From a virus, in the IMG/VR virus record IMGVR_UViG_3300025655_000201, positions 1-29,274 of that record: a stretch of DNA of 29,274 nucleotides. One strand, 5' to 3'. The notes beneath the pieces are model-generated. The model worked only from the letters and a program-made list of their open reading frames with translations, ran no database searches and was not told the DNA's origin. How positions within the stretch are numbered: position 1 is the stretch's first letter; each line of letters begins with the position of its first letter. Position numbers and translations under genes: made by a program. Shown here piece after piece: positions 1 through 16,300 of this stretch.

Positions 1-768
1 CCAGGCTTCTAGAATTTCCTTGTCAGTCCAAGTTTCCGCACCAGATTCAGCCGAATCGAGTCCGTCGTATGATGTTCCTGTTTTTTCACACTCCGCTTTG
101 ATAAAGTTGAACGTTTCACTATTCGATGAGTGATATACTTTAGAAATAGAGTTATACATTCTTTGTTTATTGTCTTCATGCCCCATCAAACTAGCTTGGT
201 GTGAATCAACATATTTTTTTACGTATTTATTGTAATAAACCTCGTCTGTGATATTTCCGTAAAGCCTGATTTCCTTGTAACCATCCTTTATAGCACGTTC
301 AATCGAGACATGAGTTTGTTTGTTCTCATCAATGCTTCCGATTACTGCGGCGATACCAAACACAACCCTTTCTGGCTTGTATAGTTTTTCTACTACATTT
401 GGGATCACCTTTCCAGGAACGCCTTGCCAGAACATCTGTGAGTTGGAAACATACACAACGTCATCCCAGAAAGGTTGGGTTTCCTTTACAGGATACACAT
501 TCTTCTCGTGACAAGCAAGAATAACTTTGTTGGATTGCTCGGGTCGGTGCGGGAACTTCAGATAATGAACAATAAGATTCTCTTCTGGTTCATTTATCGG
601 AACCTCCATCAAATGACCTGATTTACATTTATCCAAATGCCATTCATGAGGACCGTAAAAGGTGCAGTCATATCCATTTTCATTGAACAGATTGCACAGA
701 TTTATGAAAGCAACGGTTGACCCACCAGGGGCAGACCAACCGCTCATAATTTTGATTTTTTTATTCAT
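1..768 (-). CDS. Glycosyltransferase, GT-B fold (C-terminus outside window)
   Basis: Partial gene: 256 codons are visible and the frame stays open to the window edge. The start is an ATG at 768 that overlaps the 3' end of the next upstream gene by 8 bp. The N-terminus (MNKKIKIMSGWSAPGGSTVAF) is a first beta strand followed by a Gly-rich loop, as in GT-B glycosyltransferases. A later strand-loop block (VFGIAAVIGSIDENKQTHVS, about residues 137-156) resembles the start of the nucleotide-sugar domain of GT4-type enzymes. It is the third of three consecutive sugar-transfer genes, which suggests a joint role in glycosylating phage DNA, virion proteins or a host surface polymer. Donor and acceptor cannot be told. 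Confidence 0.65.
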   Translation of the reverse strand, partial: MNKKIKIMSGWSAPGGSTVAFINLCNLFNENGYDCTFYGPHEWHLDKCKSGHLMEVPINEPEENLIVHYLKFPHRPEQSNKVILACHEKNVYPVKETQPFWDDVVYVSNSQMFWQGVPGKVIPNVVEKLYKPERVVFGIAAVIGSIDENKQTHVSIERAIKDGYKEIRLYGNITDEVYYNKYVKKYVDSHQASLMGHEDNKQRMYNSISKVYHSSNSETFNFIKAECEKTGTSYDGLDSAESGAETWTDKEILEAW

Positions 769-1537
769 GCTCTCTTTCTAGGTGATGCCATATCATAGTA
801 TCTTCAACTTCGTTATCAGCAAGAAATACTTCATCAAGTTTTCTTCCGATTCCAGTTGTGTACCTGAACATTGGATCTCTAGACGGGACATCTGCACGTC
901 CACGGGTGAGTTTGTTCTCGTACTCCTCTTTGGACTTTACCCAGTAATGATTGATTCTTAGGATCTCTGCGGATGCGGGTTCATTGAACGGACCGCCGCA
1001 AGGTTGCTTTCTCTCGTTTACGGCTAACCCATGAGTATAAACGAAAGAGTGCGGGTTGTTTGCTGGGCAAAGAGTGTACATCGGTTGAACAATTGACTTT
1101 ACGTGTTTATCGACACTCTTGCGCCTCTTCGTGTAGTTTTTCAGAACCCCACCGGAGGGACGCTTCTCATGCCCGTTAGAGCCATAGAACACTTCATTGA
1201 CTGCTACTCCAGGATGCTGCTCAAACTCCTTCAGGCGCTCTTTTAGGTTGCCCTGAGGGGCGAATAGGAACTCATCGAGATCAATAAATGCCATCCACTT
1301 GGACTGGTCACGGAAGGCGGTAAGTGCGTTGTAATAACAAGCCATTTGCGCCATGTCCATGTCGGTGTAAAAATATGAGATATCCTTCTGTCCCTTACAA
1401 ATTTCTTTGGTATTGTCTGTACTTCCGTTATCATAAAGATAGAAGTGTTCCACTCCTACAGCCCTATGAAAATCCAACCATTCTTGAAGGTTCTTGCCTT
1501 CGTCTTTCATTATTGCTACAATGCTTAGATAGTTCAT
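761..1537 (-). CDS. GT92/GT2-like glycosyltransferase
   Basis: This 258-aa protein begins MNYLSIVAIMKDEGKNLQEWL and continues with a YLYDNGSTDNT segment, the usual opening of GT-A enzymes of the family 92 (DUF23)/GT2 type. The acidic metal/sugar motif follows as FIDLDEFLF (about residues 84-92). Near the C-terminus an INHYWVKSKEEYENK stretch matches the family pattern of a conserved His before a Ser/Lys-rich helix. The start ATG overlaps the upstream glycosyltransferase stop in an ATGA arrangement, so translation is probably coupled. The sugar and acceptor are unknown. Length is normal for a single catalytic domain without membrane anchor. Confidence 0.75.
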   Translation of the reverse strand: MNYLSIVAIMKDEGKNLQEWLDFHRAVGVEHFYLYDNGSTDNTKEICKGQKDISYFYTDMDMAQMACYYNALTAFRDQSKWMAFIDLDEFLFAPQGNLKERLKEFEQHPGVAVNEVFYGSNGHEKRPSGGVLKNYTKRRKSVDKHVKSIVQPMYTLCPANNPHSFVYTHGLAVNERKQPCGGPFNEPASAEILRINHYWVKSKEEYENKLTRGRADVPSRDPMFRYTTGIGRKLDEVFLADNEVEDTMIWHHLEREHE

Positions 1538-2788: not shown

Positions 2789-3439
2789 TCATACTTTTCG
2801 GTTTTTAAAGTAACTGACTTTGTCAGGTGCGAATACATCCAAATCTTTTGTTCCTTTTCTGAGGTTACAGGTTGGACATGAAATCGCCAAGTTTTCTAGT
2901 TCTCCCGAACCATCTTTGGCTACGGGAATGATATGCTCTAAGTGGTAACTACCTTTAATTTCTTTTTCGCAGTATTCACATGAGAACTTTTCTTTTTTGA
3001 ATGTAACTTTGTTGTATTCTTCTAAAGCGAGTACGGAAGAGACGGCTATGGAATAACGACTAAGCTTTGACCTCATGTTCGCGTAGGCTTTCCACTTCCT
3101 TCCAGTCTCAGTATGTTTGTGCCACCATCTCTGGTATTTTATAAAATACTCTTTTCTGCTTTCGTAAATCGCTCTCCTTTCTTCTTCAGGCTTTGCAGCC
3201 CATCGTTTTCTTGAATATGCGTTTTCACGCTCCTTGATTTCTGGTCGCCTTTTATACTCCCTACCCCTCTTTACTTGACAAGACTTACACTCAGGTTTGT
3301 ATCCGTGAAGTGCGTTGCCTTTATTAAACTCTAACAAGGTAAACTCTTTTTTACAAGTGTTGCAGGGTTTTGTAATATTTCCCCGCTCGGAATCAGGAAC
3401 TCTTTCGGGCTTCCATCTTTTTCTTCTCTTTTGTGGCAT
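2789..3439 (-). CDS. HNH endonuclease (probable homing endonuclease)
   Basis: The 216-aa protein has a C-terminal HNH domain: C153-x2-C156, the catalytic LEHI His at 168, N182 and C187-x2-C190 with N191. Near the N-terminus a second Cys pair set (C26-x2-C29, C47-x2-C50) probably forms a zinc finger, followed by a very basic region (about 52-130) suited to DNA binding. This is the build of phage free-standing HNH homing endonucleases. The ATG has a strong Shine-Dalgarno (AAGGAGG) and a promoter-like CTATATAAATTA upstream, so it is probably expressed by itself. It lies between the terminator of the gp32-like gene and a glycosyltransferase with a disrupted start, and 11-bp direct repeats flank it. 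It could instead be a non-mobile HNH nuclease. Confidence 0.85.
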   Translation of the reverse strand: MPQKRRKRWKPERVPDSERGNITKPCNTCKKEFTLLEFNKGNALHGYKPECKSCQVKRGREYKRRPEIKERENAYSRKRWAAKPEEERRAIYESRKEYFIKYQRWWHKHTETGRKWKAYANMRSKLSRYSIAVSSVLALEEYNKVTFKKEKFSCEYCEKEIKGSYHLEHIIPVAKDGSGELENLAISCPTCNLRKGTKDLDVFAPDKVSYFKNRKV

Positions 3440-7386: not shown

Positions 7387-9285
7387 TTCACACACTCCAT
7401 TTTTACAGGTTTCTACGGACTCGGTAATCTCCTCTATCGTCCCTTGCTGAATTAGCTTGTCCAGATCAATTGTATTGATATCTACAGCTTCTAGCGGCTC
7501 ATTACCTCTTGACCCGGCTCGATAGAAAGTAAACCCTTTCATATCGTTCGCATAGGTAAGAAGATCATCATACAGGTTTGACGGCTTGAAATCTGCGGGT
7601 AGGTTACAAGTTTTTGATACAGCGGAATCGATATAGGATTGAACTACAGCCTGTACTTTGATGTGTTCTTCTGGGGATACGTCGTACGCCCCAACACAAT
7701 GCGAGACATCACGCCCACGAAGATATAACTGCTTGAAAAGAGGGTCAACCACAAAAGTCTCATTCCAGACACCATCAGTGCCAGTACGCCACCTACGCTT
7801 GTAAACAGGGGCAAAGATCGGCTCAAGACCAGTAGAGACACCCAATACCATGCTGATAGTTCCAGTTGGAGCAACGGTAAGAAGAACGGCGTTTCGTAGA
7901 CCATTCTTCTTAATGTCAGATCGGATTCTTGATGGTAATGTTTTGAAGTACTTCTCATCTTTTAGTTTGCTCCAGTCGTATGCGGGGAAACTACCTTTTT
8001 CCTTACCGAGATACATAGAGGCTTTGTACGCCTCGTTTCTTATCGTGGCGAACAACCGTTCCAGGAATTCCAAGCACGATTCGTCTCCATATTTGAATCC
8101 TGATTTGATAAGAAAGTAGTGTAGTCCAGTGACGCCCAATCCGATTCTTCGGGAACGCATTCCCCCTTCTTCACACTCTGGAATTGGGAAGTGGTTTGCT
8201 GTGAGGATATTGTCGAGGAATCGTACTCCGGTACGGATTGTGCGAGCCAGTCTACGCCAATCGATATTACCGTCCATATCCACCATATTAGCAAGATTGA
8301 CGTGGCCAAGACAGCAATTCCCATACGCAGGAAGAACTTCCTCACCGCAGGGGTTGGTAGAAGGCATATACTCAAAGTAAGAAGCGTTAGTATATTCGTT
8401 AGCAAAATCTATATTGAAGATTCCCGGTTCCCCTGATTCAATAGCGTTATCTACGATATGCTCCCAGAGTTCACGAGCGCGGATCTCTTTCTTCGTTACT
8501 CCTATAAAAGTATCCGCATAGTGCTTTAGGTAATGAACCTTAGCGCGACCAAGAGCATCGTCCTCATTCTTTGCGACAACTTCTATAATGTCATCGCCAA
8601 GCTCGGACTTGCGCTCAACAGAATAGACGTAGTATTTATTATGCTTTCCACCGAAAGTAAAATACCACTCATCATCTTTTTCAACAGCCTCAATAAATCT
8701 CTTTGTGATAGCAACAGAGATGTTGAAATTAGTTAGCTCTTTTCTATCAAGTTTTACGTGTAAAAACTCTAAAAAGTCTGGATGTGTTACTTCCAGAATA
8801 GACATAAGAGCGGTTCTGCGGTTCTTTCCAGCGCGAACATGATTTCCGATTTCATTAATCATTCGCATAACAGAAATAGATCCTGGTGCGGAATGAACAA
8901 TGTTCTGTATATTGTCTCCCTTGGGACGAATCTTTGAGAAGTTGAAACCAATCCCGCCTCCTCCACAGGAAATCTTATACATATCAGAAATTATCTTTCC
9001 AATATTGTCTACAGAATCTTCGGGGTCTAGAACATAACAGTTCAGAAGGTTCTGGCGGCTTCTACCTGAACCAAATAGGATTCGTCCTCCTGGGCAGAAA
9101 TCTCCGTTGTTGATGGCGTCAAAAAACTTCTGCTCATACTTCTGTCTATTCTCGGGGAATTCGGGATCGGAAGCTGCTTTTGCTACTCTTCGGGCGCACT
9201 CTTTCCAGCTTGTCTCTCCAGGATAAGCATACTTATCCATGAAAATTGTTTCCGCGAGAGAGTTCTCGGGAATTTCATATCCCAT
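7381..9285 (-). CDS. nrdJ: Ribonucleotide reductase, class II (adenosylcobalamin type)
   Basis: This 634-aa enzyme reduces ribonucleotides to deoxyribonucleotides, independent of oxygen, using coenzyme B12. The N-terminal redox Cys is C82 (NLLNCYVLDP). The radical site is STNPCGEE (C313, E315), followed by NCCLGHVNL with the partner Cys at 324/325. VAPTGTISM is the nucleotide-binding block. The tail CKNGVCEL (C627, C632) is a C-terminal cysteine pair expected to relay electrons; the thioredoxin-like protein at 15974-16300 is a candidate donor. NPCGE, the short length and absence of an nrdB gene nearby indicate class II. Residues about 205-265 are an insertion relative to the usual spacing. 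The start is coupled to the co-chaperonin stop, with GGAGG upstream. Confidence 0.93.
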   Translation of the reverse strand: MGYEIPENSLAETIFMDKYAYPGETSWKECARRVAKAASDPEFPENRQKYEQKFFDAINNGDFCPGGRILFGSGRSRQNLLNCYVLDPEDSVDNIGKIISDMYKISCGGGGIGFNFSKIRPKGDNIQNIVHSAPGSISVMRMINEIGNHVRAGKNRRTALMSILEVTHPDFLEFLHVKLDRKELTNFNISVAITKRFIEAVEKDDEWYFTFGGKHNKYYVYSVERKSELGDDIIEVVAKNEDDALGRAKVHYLKHYADTFIGVTKKEIRARELWEHIVDNAIESGEPGIFNIDFANEYTNASYFEYMPSTNPCGEEVLPAYGNCCLGHVNLANMVDMDGNIDWRRLARTIRTGVRFLDNILTANHFPIPECEEGGMRSRRIGLGVTGLHYFLIKSGFKYGDESCLEFLERLFATIRNEAYKASMYLGKEKGSFPAYDWSKLKDEKYFKTLPSRIRSDIKKNGLRNAVLLTVAPTGTISMVLGVSTGLEPIFAPVYKRRWRTGTDGVWNETFVVDPLFKQLYLRGRDVSHCVGAYDVSPEEHIKVQAVVQSYIDSAVSKTCNLPADFKPSNLYDDLLTYANDMKGFTFYRAGSRGNEPLEAVDINTIDLDKLIQQGTIEEITESVETCKNGVCEL

Positions 9286-9560
9286 TATACTTCCTCCCCG
9301 TAAACGAGAATATCTTCTTCTGGAATTACTAGATAAACTTCATCGTCTATCTTGATTTCTTGTCCAGCGAATTGCGCGAAAATTACGTGTTGACCTTCTT
9401 TCCAATACTTGCCTTCACACCCTCTAGCAGCTTTAACGATGTAACCTTCGCTAAGCTTCTTTTCGGTTACAGCATCGGGAAGAAGAACTCCGCCTTTGGT
9501 CTTTATTTCGTTCTTTTTACGAGAAATGATTAATCTTTTACCGTTAGGAGTGTATTTCAT
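9285..9560 (-). CDS. GroES-like co-chaperonin (gp31 counterpart)
   Basis: The 91-aa protein matches Cpn10 length and pattern: NGKRLIISR at the start, a mobile loop ending in GGVLLPDAVTEKK (about 23-35), then EGYIVKAARG and the GQHVIFAQFAGQEI barrel strand. It should cap host GroEL for folding of phage proteins. T4 uses gp31 in the same way for its capsid protein gp23, and a gp23-type capsid is encoded in this window. No groEL is present, so the host supplies it. It lies 13 bp after the gp46-like gene, and its stop overlaps the RNR start. Confidence 0.9.
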   Translation of the reverse strand: MKYTPNGKRLIISRKKNEIKTKGGVLLPDAVTEKKLSEGYIVKAARGCEGKYWKEGQHVIFAQFAGQEIKIDDEVYLVIPEEDILVYGEEV

Positions 9561-9570
9561 TTTTCTTGGA

Positions 9571-9581
9571 ATATTATATAG
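9571..9581 (-). promoter_or_regulatory. Candidate promoter before the co-chaperonin
   Basis: The minus strand reads CTATATAATAT, ending 10 nt before the ATG at 9560, and overlaps the end of the gp46-like gene. It resembles the motif at 3451-3465 and the T4 late core TATAAATA. AT-rich stop codons can produce such strings by chance. Confidence 0.3.
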
Positions 9582-11184
9582 CTATTTTTGTAAGATTATT
9601 ACGTTTTGTTACAATTAAAGTTTGTGAATATTCTTCTAATAGCGAAGAAAGATATTCGTTATGAGTTATGATGAAGAGTTTTTTATGTTTGGTTAGCTGG
9701 TGAATAAGCTCAATCAAACCTTTCACTCCGTCTGCGTCAAGAGAATCCGCTACCTCATCGAAAAAGATTATGTTTGATCTGTTCTTACCAGTAAGAAGAA
9801 GTAGATCGTTGAGTCCAAGCATTACAGCTAACGAGACTCGTTTCTTTTCGCCTCCAGATAGAGATTCATAGTGACATTCTACCCCGTCATTATAGATCGT
9901 CTCGACCAGTGAATCGTCAAATTTTATGATAAAATTGCCTTTTGTTAGCGTACTCAAATAAGAGTTGCATCTCTCGTTCAAATACTCAAGGATGTTGCGT
10001 ATAACATAGCGAATCAGACCCGCCTCGGAGAAGGCGTGTTCCCAGAACTTCATTAGATCGTATTTCTTTTGGGCTTCTGTGGAAAGTTCTCCATATTTTT
10101 TGACAAGCTTTTTCTCGGTCTTGATTTGTGCGTTTATAACTTTTATTTCAGTATCAATTTCTTTGAACTTTTCAATTGTTTCAAAATCAGAAGATGATAC
10201 TGGAATCTGTAGCTTGTCTACAAGTTCTCCGAGCTTACGAATCATTTTTACCATCTCTCGTTCCTCGGAAGACCAAGACTGTATTTTCTCTTCTAGCTCT
10301 TTTGACTTATACAGGTTGGCATTTGAAAGCTTTCCGCAATGCTCACAACTTGTACCACTAAGAGCTTTTAAGGTACTGTTTGTTTGTAGAATTCTATCAC
10401 GAAGAACATCCCTCTTGGCAATGGCTCTTTCGTACTCAACATCTTTTTCGTGATGCTGTCTCTCAAGATCTTGTATTTCACTTAGGGATTTATTCTCAAT
10501 AAACTTGAGCTTGTCCTGAGAGAAGTAGCTCTTGGACTGCTTCTTCAGCTTACGTAGAGACGCGAGCTTGTTGGAAAGCTTGTTTACTTTTTGTGTAGCA
10601 TCATTGTGCAGAGCAAGGTTTACTTTCTTGTCATTCAAGTGCTGTGATTTGAAAGATTTTATAACAGACCTATTCTTGAACAAATCCCCGACAGACAGGA
10701 AGTTCTGAATAATCGCTCGCTTTTCTTCGGGAGTAGCTGTTAGGAAATCGGTGTTGTTTGATTGGCCAAAGATGATTGATGCTAGGAATACATTGTGGTT
10801 GATGTTGAGTATTTGCTCAAGATACTTTTGTGTATTCTGTATCGAGTCTTGGGTGCAGTTTTTATCTCCAACATGAACTGTGAGCATTGGTGGACGCTTC
10901 ACTCGTTCAATTACCGTATCTCCGTTAATCGTTAGGACGACTTTACACTTTCCCTTTGTATGATAGTTCTTGAGGCTCTTGTCGTTTGTTTTTCGGATAG
11001 TCTTTCCAAACAAAGCGAACATAATAGCCTCGATGATCGTGCTTTTTCCAGCACCATTTGATCCAGCTGGTTTTGTATCATAATTTTTTCCTACGATACG
11101 AACTAGATTACCGCACGAATCAAAATCGACCACAGCCTCTTTCACGGAAAGAAAGTTGTAAATTTCAAGTTTATTGAGATGCAT
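9574..11184 (-). CDS. 46: Recombination nuclease ATPase subunit, gp46/SbcC/Rad50 type
   Basis: An SMC-like ATPase of 536 residues. Walker A is AGSNGAGKST (40-49). A long coiled coil (about 165-375) is interrupted by the zinc hook C280-x2-C283. The ABC signature is LSGGEKKRV (442-450), and Walker B is NIIFFDEVAD (471-480), with a D-loop after it. Length is close to T4 gp46 (560 aa). It would pair with the gp47-like nuclease, whose gene ends 14 bp inside this one, to resect DNA ends for recombination-dependent replication. The ATG at 11184 has AGGAG upstream. Confidence 0.95.
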   Translation of the reverse strand: MHLNKLEIYNFLSVKEAVVDFDSCGNLVRIVGKNYDTKPAGSNGAGKSTIIEAIMFALFGKTIRKTNDKSLKNYHTKGKCKVVLTINGDTVIERVKRPPMLTVHVGDKNCTQDSIQNTQKYLEQILNINHNVFLASIIFGQSNNTDFLTATPEEKRAIIQNFLSVGDLFKNRSVIKSFKSQHLNDKKVNLALHNDATQKVNKLSNKLASLRKLKKQSKSYFSQDKLKFIENKSLSEIQDLERQHHEKDVEYERAIAKRDVLRDRILQTNSTLKALSGTSCEHCGKLSNANLYKSKELEEKIQSWSSEEREMVKMIRKLGELVDKLQIPVSSSDFETIEKFKEIDTEIKVINAQIKTEKKLVKKYGELSTEAQKKYDLMKFWEHAFSEAGLIRYVIRNILEYLNERCNSYLSTLTKGNFIIKFDDSLVETIYNDGVECHYESLSGGEKKRVSLAVMLGLNDLLLLTGKNRSNIIFFDEVADSLDADGVKGLIELIHQLTKHKKLFIITHNEYLSSLLEEYSQTLIVTKRNNLTKIAI

Positions 11185-12190
11185 TTCGTATTTCTCCTAA
11201 GGCTTTCAGTAAGTCGTTCTTAGAAAATATGGTATCGCTTTCTTCGATATACTGATTGATTATACTGTCGTCTAAAGTGAATATTTGTTTTTTTGGTGAG
11301 TAAGAAGATTCAAATTTAGGCATAACATCTTCAAATACCAACTCTAAGTGCTGTATTGGGTACTTAGCAAATATTTCTTCTTTCAAACGATCCTCGGTAT
11401 AAGTATCAAGCTTGTCCATCTTTACACGAAGAATGGTGAAAAAGTCCTCAAACTTATGCTTAGTGGCTAACTCAGGAATTTCGTCTATAGTACCGACAAC
11501 GTGCTTGATTCCTTTTCCCATTGGCTTTCTTACCATCTCAATCTCTTTACCGCGTATGATAAGTTCATGAACGTACTTCTGTGCGTTTGCTTCGCCAAAG
11601 GTATTTGAGTATTGAGTTCCTAGGATTACTACGTTATCGTAAATTTTTGGCTTGTGGATATGTCCTAAGAAGGCGTAAGGTTTTTTCTTGAAATGCCAAC
11701 GTTTTACTCGCGCCTCATATGCGTAGTGTCCATTAGAAACGCAGCCATCAAAACCAAAATGACCGAATACAGGGTTATTGGTTTTCTTCAGATCTTGTAT
11801 TATTTTGTCTTCGTCCTCATAGTGAGGAATGAAATCAAAATCGATGTCGCCTATTCGTATTGTTTCAGTATCTTTTACGATATGGGCTAGATCAGAGAAT
11901 AGCGTTAGAACTGTATCGGATGTTCCGTCTTTTCTCAAAGTATCGTGGTTACCTCGATTGACGATGATATTCTTACACTTGATACTTTCTAATATTTGAC
12001 GGAAAGCCAGAAGTTCTTCGCTTCGTGGGTTTCTGCGTTCAAATACATCTCCGTTGATAACAACGTGGGTACACGGTTTTCTGTTCGCAAGATCTACCAG
12101 GGTTTCTATTTGAGTCTCAAGAAACCCTGGCATGTAGTCAGATCGAAGGTGTAAATCCGTGAGAATAACAACCCTACTTGTTTTTGACAT
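11171..12190 (-). CDS. 47: Recombination nuclease subunit, gp47/SbcD/Mre11 type
   Basis: A calcineurin-like metallophosphoesterase of 339 residues, the T4 gp47 size. The motifs appear in order: TDLHLRSD (D11, H13), NGDVFERR, NRGNHD, GHFGFDG and GHIHKP, which supply the two-metal site. It would act as the nuclease in a complex with the gp46-like ATPase encoded next. The start overlaps the polymerase gene's 3' end by 17 bp and has no clear Shine-Dalgarno sequence, so translation is probably coupled to the polymerase. Confidence 0.95.
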   Translation of the reverse strand: MSKTSRVVILTDLHLRSDYMPGFLETQIETLVDLANRKPCTHVVINGDVFERRNPRSEELLAFRQILESIKCKNIIVNRGNHDTLRKDGTSDTVLTLFSDLAHIVKDTETIRIGDIDFDFIPHYEDEDKIIQDLKKTNNPVFGHFGFDGCVSNGHYAYEARVKRWHFKKKPYAFLGHIHKPKIYDNVVILGTQYSNTFGEANAQKYVHELIIRGKEIEMVRKPMGKGIKHVVGTIDEIPELATKHKFEDFFTILRVKMDKLDTYTEDRLKEEIFAKYPIQHLELVFEDVMPKFESSYSPKKQIFTLDDSIINQYIEESDTIFSKNDLLKALGEIRNASQ

Positions 12191-13691
12191 ATTCTAATAT
12201 TTCATTTTCGTTGCACAGGCAGCCAGTTGAATCGAATTCTGCTTCGATCATGTCCCCGAATGAGGTTCCGGCTTCAACATCCACAACGAAGGGTACAACA
12301 AAATCTAGACCGTACAACTTCTTGAAATCGTCAGTGCTTTGAAGAACATACTTCATCAACTCTAAAGTTTTCTTCATGTCCTTTTTAGAAGCTTGAACTT
12401 CTACTGAGTCGTGTACAGTAGCAAGAATCTGTGCATCTAGTCCTGTCTTAGTTAGGTACTTTTGAAGACGAAGAATGGAATGCAACATCAAATCTGATGC
12501 TGAACTTTGAATCACAAAGTTCATTCCTTGTCTTAAAGCACGGTATTGGTATTTTTTATTCGGACTGTTTACATTTTGTAGGTGTCGGCGTCTTCCGAAA
12601 AGACTTACCGCATAACCATTTTGTTTTACAAACTTGTGTACAAAATCAATCCACTTGAAAACCTTTGGAAAGGAGTCCTGGTATGCTTTGAAAATACTCT
12701 TGCAGTATCCGACATCCTTACCGATCTGCATTGATAGCTTGTGTGGACCTCCGCCATACACGATCAAGAAGCTTACACTTTTTGCGATCTGGCGTTCTTC
12801 TTTTGTAACTTCAGACGCATCCTTACCGAATACCAGAGATGCGGTAAAACTGTGAAGGTCTTGACCAGAGTTGAATGCTTCGATTAGGTTTTTATCACGA
12901 CAGCATTGAGCGAGAACACGAAGCTCTGCCTGAGAGAAGTCTGCCGCAAGAAATACCTTATCATCATCAGCAGTCATCATACTGCGAAGATTTACCTCGT
13001 CACCATCTTCTGGTCTTGGCAAGGTATGGAACGATATTCCCTTCTTGTTCTTTGGAGATACCGAATACGTGGAGCAGCTGAGACGCCCTGTAACGACGTT
13101 TCCGAAGTTGTAGCTGGAGTAGACTCTACCATCCTCGTTGTACTCTAATGCGTTCTCCACGCCCTTTACGTACGTCTTGTGCTGCTTTACACGGGCTTTG
13201 TGACGGAGAAGAAGCTCAATGTATTCTTTCGCGTCTCCTTTGGCGGTAGCAGCTACGCTTGTTAGGTGAGCCTCAGTAATAGATGGAGCCTTGGTCTTCT
13301 TTGAAAACTCAGTTGCTTTTAGACCAAACCCTTCTTTGCTGAATAGCAGTAGTCCCATGTCAGCATTTGAGTTTGGATTCACTCCGTCTATAGGTGATAG
13401 TTCCTTTAGACGTTCGTGGATATCGTTGATCTCATCTTGAAGAATCTGGTCGAATCGCTTTACACAATCCGTATCAACAAGAATACCATTATGCTCTATC
13501 TCAGAAGCTACTACAAGGATTTCCTTGAGAAGTTTATCATATACATGATTCACTCCTTTGCTTTTCATCTGAGGATTCATAAGACGACACGCCCTTAGAG
13601 TGAAGTCGGCATCCATGGCATTGCCAAGAGCCATGTCCTCTAAGGGCATGTTTTCCCAATCGTGGGTTCCACCGTTAGTTACGGTTAGCAT
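12174..13691 (-). CDS. polA: DNA polymerase family A, polymerase half of a split gene
   Basis: The 505-aa protein holds the Pol I-type polymerase domain. Motif A is AADFSQAELR (D251). Motif B is R300-QIA-K304-SVS-F308-LIV-Y312, matching E. coli R754, K758, F762 and Y766. Motif C is VHDSVEV (H427, D428, with Ser in place of Glu). The Phe at the 762 position predicts normal discrimination against dideoxynucleotides. The first 30 residues are not polymerase sequence: NAMDAD (24-29) is the Exo III motif of the 3'-5' exonuclease domain, whose Exo I and II motifs are in the protein at 14647-15618. At the Exo III Tyr position there is Gly23. The ATG overlaps the glutamine synthetase stop. Confidence 0.95.
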   Translation of the reverse strand: MLTVTNGGTHDWENMPLEDMALGNAMDADFTLRACRLMNPQMKSKGVNHVYDKLLKEILVVASEIEHNGILVDTDCVKRFDQILQDEINDIHERLKELSPIDGVNPNSNADMGLLLFSKEGFGLKATEFSKKTKAPSITEAHLTSVAATAKGDAKEYIELLLRHKARVKQHKTYVKGVENALEYNEDGRVYSSYNFGNVVTGRLSCSTYSVSPKNKKGISFHTLPRPEDGDEVNLRSMMTADDDKVFLAADFSQAELRVLAQCCRDKNLIEAFNSGQDLHSFTASLVFGKDASEVTKEERQIAKSVSFLIVYGGGPHKLSMQIGKDVGYCKSIFKAYQDSFPKVFKWIDFVHKFVKQNGYAVSLFGRRRHLQNVNSPNKKYQYRALRQGMNFVIQSSASDLMLHSILRLQKYLTKTGLDAQILATVHDSVEVQASKKDMKKTLELMKYVLQSTDDFKKLYGLDFVVPFVVDVEAGTSFGDMIEAEFDSTGCLCNENEILEYVKNK

Positions 13692-14647
13692 GAAAGTGTT
13701 TTTAGTATTCTAGCAGTTACAAGATAAGGGTCACAAGTAGCTGCGGGTCTACGATCTTCAAAATACCCACAGCCCTTTACTTCGACATGGCTAGGAATAC
13801 GAACACTTGCGCTTCTATCACCGACACCATGCGTAAACTTATTATAGTCTGAAGTTTCGCATTCTCCGGTTAATCTTAGCTCATTTCCAACACCGTAAAC
13901 TTCCATGTGTTCCTTGTGAGCTTTTTTGAATTTCTTCATAATATTTTCCAGGGTGTCAAGACTTTCTCGTAGCTCCTTTGTAGAAACATTTACATGACAC
14001 CCAGCACCATTCAGATCTTTGTAAATCTTTGGGTGATAGGAAATACGCATGTTGAACTTCTCGGCGTTTCTCTCATTAATGAATCGAGAAACCCACAGAT
14101 TGTCTGACGCATCGACTGCGGTCTTTGGCTGTGTTTGGTATTCCCATTGAGAGAGCATAACTTCAGCGTTGTAACCAAACAGATCTAGTCCAGCTTTTTC
14201 GCATTTAATCATATGCTCTTCTGCGATCAGTCTACCTACAACTCTACCAGCACCATTACCACAATAGAACTCTCCCTGTACCTGTTCTTCTGGTACAACC
14301 GGATTCATCATCGGATCAGTGATAGTATACTCCTGTTCAAATCCGAACCAAACATCATTCAGATCCATTTCTCTGAGCTTGGCTCGATTATTGCTTTCGT
14401 GTGGTGTTCCGTCCGGGTAAAGCACTTCACATAGAGCAAGATACCCGTCTTCTCTGAATGGGTCGACGTATATCTTTACGGGCTTTAGGGTTCTGTCGGA
14501 ATCCTTCAGATCTCCTTGCTTCGTACTCCCTCCATCGAAAGACCAATCGGGAAGAATGCTTTCTACAGTAGGAAGAAGTCTAACTTTTGACCGGATCTGA
14601 GGCATATCGTCGGATCCGTCTAACCAAATATATTCTACAGTTTTCAT
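13685..14647 (-). CDS. glnA: Glutamine synthetase, type II (eukaryote-like)
   Basis: The enzyme would make glutamine from glutamate, ammonia and ATP. The 320 residues follow the GSII pattern from end to end: YIWLDGS; WSFDGGST with KQG; DPFRED...LALCEV; WFGFEQEYT with the metal-binding Glu pair; FYCGNGAGRVVGR; YNAEVMLSQWEYQ; LNGAGCHVNVSTK with the active-site His; GNELRLTGECET; DRSASVRIPS; and GYFEDRRPAATCDPYLVT. No key block is missing, so it looks functional; it is slightly short for GSII (about 340-370 aa). It lies exactly between the two halves of a split DNA polymerase and overlaps both neighbours (TAATG at 14647, ATGCTAA at 13691-13685). Glutamine synthetase is rare in phages; a metabolic role or a use of glutamine in modification are both possible. 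Confidence 0.93.
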   Translation of the reverse strand: MKTVEYIWLDGSDDMPQIRSKVRLLPTVESILPDWSFDGGSTKQGDLKDSDRTLKPVKIYVDPFREDGYLALCEVLYPDGTPHESNNRAKLREMDLNDVWFGFEQEYTITDPMMNPVVPEEQVQGEFYCGNGAGRVVGRLIAEEHMIKCEKAGLDLFGYNAEVMLSQWEYQTQPKTAVDASDNLWVSRFINERNAEKFNMRISYHPKIYKDLNGAGCHVNVSTKELRESLDTLENIMKKFKKAHKEHMEVYGVGNELRLTGECETSDYNKFTHGVGDRSASVRIPSHVEVKGCGYFEDRRPAATCDPYLVTARILKTLSC

Positions 14648-15618
14648 TAAAATTTTTCTAGTTCTTGTGGGAAGTATTCCTTCACCAAATCCATTAAGGA
14701 GTGCGGAAGATTTTCGTCAATAAGCGAATGCATGATCTTCGTATCTCCAATGTTATAAAAGTGTTTGATTCCAAAAGACATCAAGAATTTTATGTCGAAC
14801 TGACAATTATGAAAAACTTTCTGTATGTTCTTGTTTGCCATCAAGTTCGATAATCTTTCTCGTATATGGTCAATGTCCTTGTCTATAAAACAGGTTTCCT
14901 TGTGATATATCGGAACAGTAAACGCTTTGTTTTCCTCGTACGCAATTGCGATTGTCGAGATTACATGTTTTTTGAAATCCAATCCTGTAGTCTCAATATC
15001 GAGTCCAAGAACTTCATGATTTTCCGCGATGTCCATAAGACGGTCGAAATCAGAAATGTCTTTACATAATACATAGCCTGTTCCATCAAATTTGTTTTTG
15101 TTCAGAATAAACTTGTCGTAAGCATTGTTAATATCCTGAACAAACAGTTTTCTTACTTTCGGTTCAAGGAAAAGTGTTTCTGAGTCGTAGGTTGGTATGA
15201 CCGGGAACCCGTTATACTCAAACTCCTTTCCTCGCTTGTTGTATAGACCGGATTTCTTGATAAGAGTTTTCATTGCTACATTACCAAGAGGAATGATTAG
15301 ATCCGGTTTTATTGTGTTTATATCATCGTAGAGAAACTCACGATGTGTTGCGTAATCTTTTGTGGTAAGATCATCCTCCTTTATGTTAGGTTCTCGGATA
15401 GCGGGGACGAACTGATAATGTCCATCAGGGAGATTAGTTTTCTCAAGAAGATGCGAAACGATTGCGTATTCATTATCGTTGAAGTCGTATAGCTTTCCAC
15501 GTTCTCTATATCGACAAGGAGTTACGAATACGATCTTTTCGTCCCCAACAGAATTTGACGAATAATCTTTGTTTTTTTCTTGTTCGTCAAAACTTTCAAG
15601 AATCTTTTCTATATCCAT
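14647..15618 (-). CDS. UDG-like domain plus 3'-5' exonuclease, exonuclease part of a split PolA
   Basis: The 323-aa protein has two parts. Residues about 25-170 resemble a family 4-type uracil-DNA glycosylase fold: KPDLIIPLGNVAMKTL, RGKEFEYNGFPVIPTYD, then a KVRKLF helix. The usual HPS triad is TYDSE here, so the catalytic His is absent. Residues about 195-323 are a DEDD exonuclease: Exo I LGLDIETTGLD and Exo II VFHNCQFDIKFL. The protein ends just after a PHSLMDLVKEYF helix, before Exo III, which is at the start of the polymerase protein. The two products must probably associate to proofread. The SPO1 polymerase has a similar UDG-like N-terminus fused in one chain. Its ATG is 15 bp from the divergent sigma-like gene. 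Confidence 0.85.
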   Translation of the reverse strand: MDIEKILESFDEQEKNKDYSSNSVGDEKIVFVTPCRYRERGKLYDFNDNEYAIVSHLLEKTNLPDGHYQFVPAIREPNIKEDDLTTKDYATHREFLYDDINTIKPDLIIPLGNVAMKTLIKKSGLYNKRGKEFEYNGFPVIPTYDSETLFLEPKVRKLFVQDINNAYDKFILNKNKFDGTGYVLCKDISDFDRLMDIAENHEVLGLDIETTGLDFKKHVISTIAIAYEENKAFTVPIYHKETCFIDKDIDHIRERLSNLMANKNIQKVFHNCQFDIKFLMSFGIKHFYNIGDTKIMHSLIDENLPHSLMDLVKEYFPQELEKF

Positions 15619-15633: not shown

Positions 15634-16002
15634 ATGTCTAAGCGTAAAAAGAAAAGGCATTACATAAACAACAAAAAATTTGAAGAGACAATTTTCAATT
15701 ACTTAGATGATCCAGAAAAGTATGAGGACGAGTTGATTTCTCAACTCGACCTCTTGATCTCTAGTATTCTTACATCTTTCAAATTCAAAGTTGATTTCGA
15801 TGATGCCAAACAGGAATGTTTTCTTTTAGCTCTAAAAGTGTTGAATAATTTTAGCCGTGAAAAAGGCTCTGCGTTCAACTACTTCACTACAGTTATAGTA
15901 AACAACCTGAAACTAATTTATACTAAGAATAAAAAGTACTACGAAAAAGTTCAAGAATATCGAGATAAGAAAATCAAGAATTTTCTTGATGAAGAACTTT
16001 GA
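15634..16002 (+). CDS. 55: Small sigma-like factor, gp55-type late transcription factor
   Basis: The 122-aa protein has a basic N-terminus, then a block that follows sigma-70 region 2: FDDAKQECFLLALKVLNNFS, then EKGSAFNYFTTVIVNNLKLI, equivalent to the core-binding helix and the aromatic melting helix. There is no region 3 or 4, as in T4 gp55 (185 aa), which directs the host polymerase to TATAAATA late promoters. It is one of only two plus-strand genes in the window, starts 15 bp from a divergent gene, and overlaps the thioredoxin-like gene by 29 bp tail to tail. The candidate late promoters elsewhere in the window could be its targets. An ECF-like sigma fragment is the alternative. Confidence 0.65.
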   Translation: MSKRKKKRHYINNKKFEETIFNYLDDPEKYEDELISQLDLLISSILTSFKFKVDFDDAKQECFLLALKVLNNFSREKGSAFNYFTTVIVNNLKLIYTKNKKYYEKVQEYRDKKIKNFLDEEL

Positions 16003-16300
16003 AGTGATCGTAGATCTTTGGGTATTCCACATCTACGTCAATTCGACCTTCTGAGAAGTGAACCAAGGATGGTGCTGATGTTATTGAGAATGTTGCGAAT
16101 GCGGCTGGTAGATTCCAGCTATCTACTACATACACAATCTCATCACCTTCTTCGTTTACCCACTCCTCAGCAAGACTCAGAATTCTATCGCAATACTTAC
16201 ACCAAGGAGATGAATATAAAACCGAAAAAGTTTCAGTTTTTCTATCCTTTAGAACGTAGTTCAGTTCTTCCTCAGTTGTTAGCGGTATCAGATGTCTCAT
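15974..16300 (-). CDS. Thioredoxin-like protein
   Basis: The 108-aa protein has a thioredoxin fold pattern: a beta strand TFSVLYSS leading to PWCKYCDRI (C34-x2-C37), and later TSAPSLVHF with the likely cis-Pro. Length matches thioredoxin. The active site WCKYC differs from the canonical WCGPC, so the redox potential may differ; glutaredoxin-like function is possible. A disulphide reductant is needed by the class II RNR encoded in the same window, and this is a candidate. The last 29 bp overlap the sigma-like gene on the other strand, and the start overlaps the upstream 124-aa gene by 29 bp. Confidence 0.75.
   Translation of the reverse strand: MRHLIPLTTEEELNYVLKDRKTETFSVLYSSPWCKYCDRILSLAEEWVNEEGDEIVYVVDSWNLPAAFATFSITSAPSLVHFSEGRIDVDVEYPKIYDHFKVLHQENS

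Follow-up and report, generated by a model that had tools for sequence, protein, structure and literature searches.

Replicative polymerases split into separate proteins have been described in a few phages and often occur next to homing endonucleases or introns. In Aeromonas phages 25 and 44RR, gene 43 is split into 43A and 43B, and the phage 25 halves co-purify and are active (PMC2988022). The family A polymerase of the OM43 phages MEP401 and MEP402 is encoded in two parts separated by an open reading frame (ORF), an arrangement conserved in most of that phage group (PMC10580990). Kuravirus-like phages encode a 3'-5' exonuclease apart from the polymerase (PMC9965538), and glutamine synthetase (GS) genes occur in aquatic phages, the moraphages (PMC12619734). 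Here we describe a 29,274-base virus fragment from IMG/VR, IMGVR_UViG_3300025655_000201 (the window), in which DNA polymerase I (PolA) is encoded in two parts, EXO and POL, with a GS gene in the seam between them. In the open-licence literature we found no description of a three-piece PolA, of a PolA cut through its exonuclease site, or of metabolic genes being exchanged at such a seam. A word search of a survey covering polymerases from 18,382 genomes of tailed phages (PMC11348598) found no passage on split PolA.

Like 43A/43B, the window locus encodes a replicative phage polymerase as two genes with extra DNA between them, and adjacent profile halves together with undivided outgroups mark the two genes as one ancestral polymerase frame. 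However, gene 43 encodes a family B enzyme while the polymerase here belongs to PF00476, not PF00136, and between the Aeromonas halves lies a seg homing endonuclease or untranslated DNA rather than a series of metabolic genes. In MEP401 and MEP402 the cut falls inside the polymerase domain, the insert is one small unknown ORF, and the authors suspect an intron. The PolA of Lysinibacillus phage LysYB1 (SPO1-like, Herelleviridae) aligns along both EXO and POL and is among the best isolate matches of EXO, but it is one polypeptide with about 31% identity over the exonuclease part and no accompanying GS. The earlier note on this DNA had pointed to Rhodothermus phage RM378. That parallel holds for the T4-like virion and for exonuclease and polymerase being separate proteins, but the RM378 genes are of family B, lie about 57 kb apart and include no PolA, and we rejected RM378 as a homologous precedent. 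The Kuravirus-like exonucleases are described as separate subunits in distant genes and not as products of a cut inside the exonuclease domain, while the moraphages carry PolB and their GS is not described as polymerase-linked.

In the window, EXO (323 amino acids, 14647-15618), GS (320 amino acids, 13685-14647) and POL (505 amino acids, 12174-13691) are three minus-strand ORFs in a row. In TAATG (14645-14649) the last base of the EXO stop is also the first of the GS start, and the POL start overlaps the GS stop by seven bases in ATGCTAA (13685-13691). This tight coupling of stops and starts, already remarked on in the earlier note, is real and conserved among relatives, and TAATG is also the signal where EXO abuts POL directly. 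EXO has a uracil-DNA glycosylase (UDG)-like domain, with family 4 UDGs as best Foldseek matches (E 1e-8), followed by the first part of the PolA 3'-5' exonuclease with ExoI (D207/E209) and ExoII (D275). Foldseek recovers the exonuclease fold as well, and the Pfam matches of EXO are DNA_pol_A_exo1 (6.7e-19) and a sub-threshold UDG (7e-4). POL, of Klenow-type fold, starts with ExoIII and continues with thumb, palm and fingers (DNA_pol_A, PF00476, 7.7e-81). The codon of its D27, the ExoIII aspartate and fourth exonuclease carboxylate, lies across the split at 13611-13613. With ExoI and ExoII on EXO and ExoIII on POL, the cut passes through one catalytic site. On the PHROG polymerase profile phrog_17 (1445 positions), EXO matches positions 479-785 and POL 794-1241. 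These are adjacent parts within about 10 positions of each other, bearing out the proposal that the end of EXO and the start of POL continue each other. GS lies exactly in the polymerase gap, as also proposed, and many relatives hold other genes or none there.

We scanned IMG/VR with each of the three proteins and with alignments, and obtained 75 distinct split loci (denoted by L numbers). The point at which EXO ends and POL begins is identical in all 75, down to about 40% polymerase identity, and the aligned loci show a PolA frame permanently split between ExoII and ExoIII. EXO precedes POL in every locus that has both, even where they are 3.7 kb apart. The EXO stop is part of TAATG in 50 of 76 loci and of TGATG in seven. 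Relatives with adjacent halves and no glnA, named in the earlier note as the thing to look for, are present: the halves abut directly through TAATG in L055, L084, L087 and L088, are one base apart with no cargo in L154, and overlap by one base in 17 of 22 loci of a sister lineage, most of which has no GS. On the polymerase tree, with an approximate root, the split polymerases are one clade relative to the undivided outgroups LysYB1, FF47, MW202455 and L181. By these comparisons, the whole lineage has the split, which is older than the GS insert. The idea that the insertion made the split is thus ruled out by relatives that are split without GS. Searches of 50,697 phage records with the polymerase-piece proteins gave nothing above 60% identity in isolated phages, and in the records fetched from those searches PolA is undivided or intron-like.

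The residues of the divided site were compared in an alignment of 67 split polymerases and the four undivided outgroups. D207, E209 and D275 of EXO and D27 of POL are invariant in all 67 split relatives, and the D27 position is also Asp in 4/4 undivided polymerases. All four ExoI/II/III carboxylates expected of a PolA exonuclease are therefore present but spread over two proteins, and the alignment shows the residues of one exonuclease site conserved on two polypeptides. POL also has the motifs of a family A polymerase. Motif A (D, E) and motif B (K, F, Y) residues are kept in 67/67 split forms and motif C (H, D) in 66/66 where covered; among the motif A and B residues tested, the exception is the serine position of motif A, which varies. 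Between L013 and L017 the ratio of nonsynonymous to synonymous substitution (dN/dS) is about 0.03 for EXO, 0.13 for GS and 0.03 for POL, and by these ratios all three genes are under purifying selection. Synonymous sites are saturated between the window and L003.

POL has itself been cut again. In the sister lineage, and in L088, L090 and L092 of the window's own clade, a second cut falls at nearly the same place in the thumb (L088, L090, L092, L098-L116, L170-L180 and L344-L420), usually with an overlapping stop and start, and makes the polymerase a three-piece one. Each side of this cut carries a short extension without counterpart in the uncut forms. In a further scan seeded with the sister lineage, 69/69 complete loci had the order EXO, POL-N, POL-C. 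On the polymerase tree the thumb cut implies a minimum of two changes, which may be two independent cuts or else one cut and one fusion plus a new cut.

The seam is a frequent site of gene insertion in the window's clade, where 47 of 53 EXO/POL seams hold cargo in 17 arrangements. The cargo includes GS, ThyX, a PDDEXK_11 (PD-(D/E)XK) nuclease, a saccharopine-dehydrogenase-like protein, small proteins, among them one of 62-70 amino acids that mostly adjoins POL, and others. GS is the commonest (29 loci), the PDDEXK_11 nuclease (3.8e-26) is found in six seams, and a second nuclease-like family in two. No homing endonuclease gene is present in the window's seam. In the sister lineage a few seams hold a glycosyltransferase or a 2-oxoglutarate (2OG)-oxygenase gene. 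A deoxynucleoside monophosphate (dNMP) kinase occupies the second, thumb seam of one subgroup. The distance from EXO to the first cargo gene is -1 in most loci. The sequences show a seam filled repeatedly by different complete genes with neither half lost. As controls, the POL/SbcD junction is occupied (>100 nt) in 0/45 loci of the window's clade and the SbcD/SbcC junction in 0/61 loci overall. The Fisher p of 1e-21 for seam versus control junction overstates the case because the loci share ancestry. In the sister lineage 15 of 20 POL/SbcD junctions hold inserts, so the preference for the EXO/POL seam is limited to the window's clade. The minimum number of state changes on the polymerase tree is 10 for GS, 9 for the small protein, 4 for ThyX and 3 for the nuclease.

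That small protein, of 60-70 amino acids and with no family match, is found in 19 seams (L010 9964-10152, L030 7764-7973, L151 6975-7157 and 16 others). It usually lies directly before POL and overlaps the POL start, and is possibly a polymerase-associated small protein. A glycosyltransferase gene in the window (PF13704/GT92-like, 761-1537, minus strand) belongs to the same Pfam family as the seam cargo of L102 and L180.

Matched pairs of loci differ at the seam. On either side of it L088 (empty) and L092 (GS) share 83% identity, and the difference between them spans exactly the stretch from the EXO stop to the POL ATG. Similarly, L081, with the saccharopine-dehydrogenase-like gene, and the empty L084 are 75-76% identical and differ exactly at the seam. 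In the sisters L068 (GS) and L075 (ThyX) the cargo has been swapped. L079, a single contig in which an assembly error is possible, combines an L084-type EXO (85% protein identity) with cargo and a POL that resemble those of L078 (98.4% in DNA). It is a mosaic with its breakpoint at the seam, and exchange appears to happen there. An empty ancestral seam is suggested by the sister lineage and by L087, and individual pairs may reflect gain or loss. ThyX occupies the seam of L076, lies about 18 kb away from POL in G005 (the L074 contig) and follows just behind POL-C in G007 (the L174 contig), and from these differing placements it seems that nucleotide genes have changed position around the polymerase.

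The window's GS has both Pfam domains (Gln-synt_N and Gln-synt_C), and its closest solved relatives are eukaryotic type II GS. It combines the beta-grasp and catalytic domains of type II enzymes with conserved metal, ATP and glutamate ligands; E104, E106, E162, E169, H218, R258, E264, R278, R283, E297 and R299 are invariant among 14 seam GS. From this conservation it is most likely an active type II enzyme. Its best match to the NCBIfam GlnII equivalog, 318 bits, is under the 500-bit cut-off, making it a divergent member that is type II in kind only. The nearest cellular genes found are mainly Bacteroidota GSII with 43-49% identity. All seam GS group in a single phage clade with GS encoded elsewhere than the seam; the clade is poorly resolved, and the seam GS may have one origin or several. 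In G010 (the L104 contig) 22 kb separate GS from the polymerase, and contigs that share the split, at 82-102 kb, lack GS. Swapped, displaced or absent, GS behaves as one of several passengers. The link between nitrogen state and replication suggested in the earlier note is unsupported by this record, given the at least 10 state changes of GS, its replacement by ThyX, nucleases and the saccharopine-dehydrogenase-like gene, and its distant position in one relative. GS may instead supply glutamine for purine and cytidine triphosphate synthesis during phage DNA synthesis. The occurrence of ThyX and dNMP kinase as cargo makes this plausible, though it is the least certain step of our interpretation and we put it forward only tentatively.

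Taken together, the locus very probably encodes a multi-subunit DNA polymerase I of an uncultivated T4-like myovirus lineage, with an old split, a recurrent docking seam and GS as an interchangeable passenger. Transcribed as one operon, the pieces would be made by coupled termination and re-initiation in similar amounts, and the separate pieces would fold together into a working polymerase. We infer this assembly of EXO and POL from sequence, and the conserved split active site is indirect support for it. Insertion would be tolerated at the seam since the two halves have no common reading frame to keep. Recombination, perhaps aided by the seam PDDEXK nuclease, would bring cargo in, making the seam a place in the replication operon where genes repeatedly dock and are exchanged, and GS would be made together with the replication proteins as its passenger. 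Several points weigh against this interpretation. The ExoIII tyrosine (Y-x3-D), present in 4/4 undivided outgroups, is Gly in 67/67 split forms (POL residue 23, 13623-13625 in the window), and the proofreading chemistry may be altered or the exonuclease activity gone. Association of the pieces is a prediction, and AlphaFold single-chain models have low confidence beside the cut (EXO 290-323, POL 1-35), which fits parts that fold only on contact but also shallow alignments. The role of GS during infection is inferred. The quick maximum-likelihood polymerase tree has long outgroup branches and hence an approximate root, and all contigs are metagenomic and may be incomplete.

The ExoIII glycine is also consistent with EXO and POL being independent enzymes, EXO acting separately, POL working without proofreading and the neighbourhood being merely an operon. 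Free-standing DnaQ-like nucleases (NrnC, RNase D) are indeed among the best PDB matches of EXO. However, EXO has no ExoIII of its own, POL D27 has no evident use outside an exonuclease site yet is as invariant (67/67) as D207, E209 and D275, and the EXO-then-POL order is constant even at 3.7 kb. We therefore regard independence as improbable. That GS sits precisely at the break, its start and stop overlapping its neighbours, and is the commonest cargo (29 loci) would agree with its having inserted into an intact polA, broken it and been kept for nitrogen-replication coupling or for equal synthesis of the halves. But L055, L084, L087, L088 and the sister lineage throughout are split in the absence of GS, and elsewhere GS is replaced by unrelated genes or lies at another place, so we give this history very little credence. 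The pieces might also be joined by an intron, an intein or programmed frameshifting, with GS inside the intervening element, as PolA-gene introns are known in SPO1-like phages and in the related record Goe26 PolA is spread over separate reading frames that flank a small gene. Against an intron or other known RNA, the window has no Rfam match; against an intein, there are no intein-like extensions at the ELEKF end of EXO or the MLTV start of POL; against frameshifting, the bases before the stop vary and mutually unrelated genes intervene. Empty seams are plain TAATG, and we consider a joined product very improbable. An assembly chimera, which the earlier note had allowed for, is excluded by the recurrence of the EXO-GS-POL order in many independently assembled contigs. 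Nor was another complete polymerase, which the earlier note had named as a refutation, seen: related contigs of up to 101.7 kb, which may be incomplete, each have one PolA and one exonuclease, with no second polymerase and no PolB or PolC.

A further question is whether the seam is merely tolerant or an active target, at which a homing-type nuclease such as PDDEXK_11 cuts the conserved junction and drives gene gain. The PDDEXK_11 genes in six seams and the second nuclease-like family in two are consistent with cutting, as are insertions exact at the EXO stop and POL start, and nucleases at exchange boundaries have been described in phages (PMC10448857). But most seams have no nuclease gene, PDDEXK_11 is outside the known homing families and its cutting is hypothetical, so we consider an active target unlikely. 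A broader proposal joins these elements: a lineage-wide two- or three-subunit PolA whose seams are a dedicated capture and exchange site, with complete genes, several of them for nucleotide supply (ThyX, dNMP kinase, possibly GS), swapped by recombination at the conserved TAATG, perhaps driven by a nuclease. We hold this to be possible as a whole, though less likely than not. The more limited interpretation, of a multi-subunit PolA with an old split and a passenger GS, remains the one we prefer.

The surrounding genes fit a T4-like phage. POL is overlapped by a gene for an SbcD/gp47-like nuclease subunit (11171-12190, minus strand; phrog_100, 6.3e-27), and the next operon gene encodes an SbcC/gp46-like ATPase (9574-11184, minus strand; phrog_77, 3.2e-75). 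The other minus-strand replication genes encode a DnaB-like helicase, a dUTPase, a ribonucleotide reductase and a gp32-like protein, and the window also carries T4-type head and tail genes. The Far-T4 phages, a group recognised by gp23 phylogeny, are a candidate affiliation. Near the polymerase, a thioredoxin-fold protein with a CxxC motif is encoded at 15974-16300 (minus strand). The motif is gone in relatives L012 and L013, suggesting the protein may be structural and not redox. Divergent from EXO, a small protein at 15634-16002 (plus strand) has a weak sigma-70 region 2 match (4e-4, below the cut-off) and is conserved in relatives. A GroES-like (Cpn10) gene (9285-9560, minus strand) directly precedes that for ribonucleotide reductase, and an HNH endonuclease gene (2789-3439, minus strand) lies near the gp32-like gene.

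What marks this case is an old, lineage-wide split through one catalytic site, repeated in the thumb, with a seam that takes up metabolic genes. It is a warning for annotation, since a short PolA fragment in a phage contig can be a complete subunit and not a truncated gene, and the positions of the natural cuts may point to places where a polymerase could be split by engineering. With polymerases in two and three pieces, seams empty and loaded, and close pairs with and without cargo, these phages form a natural series for studying how an essential enzyme comes to have several subunits and what decides where auxiliary genes settle.

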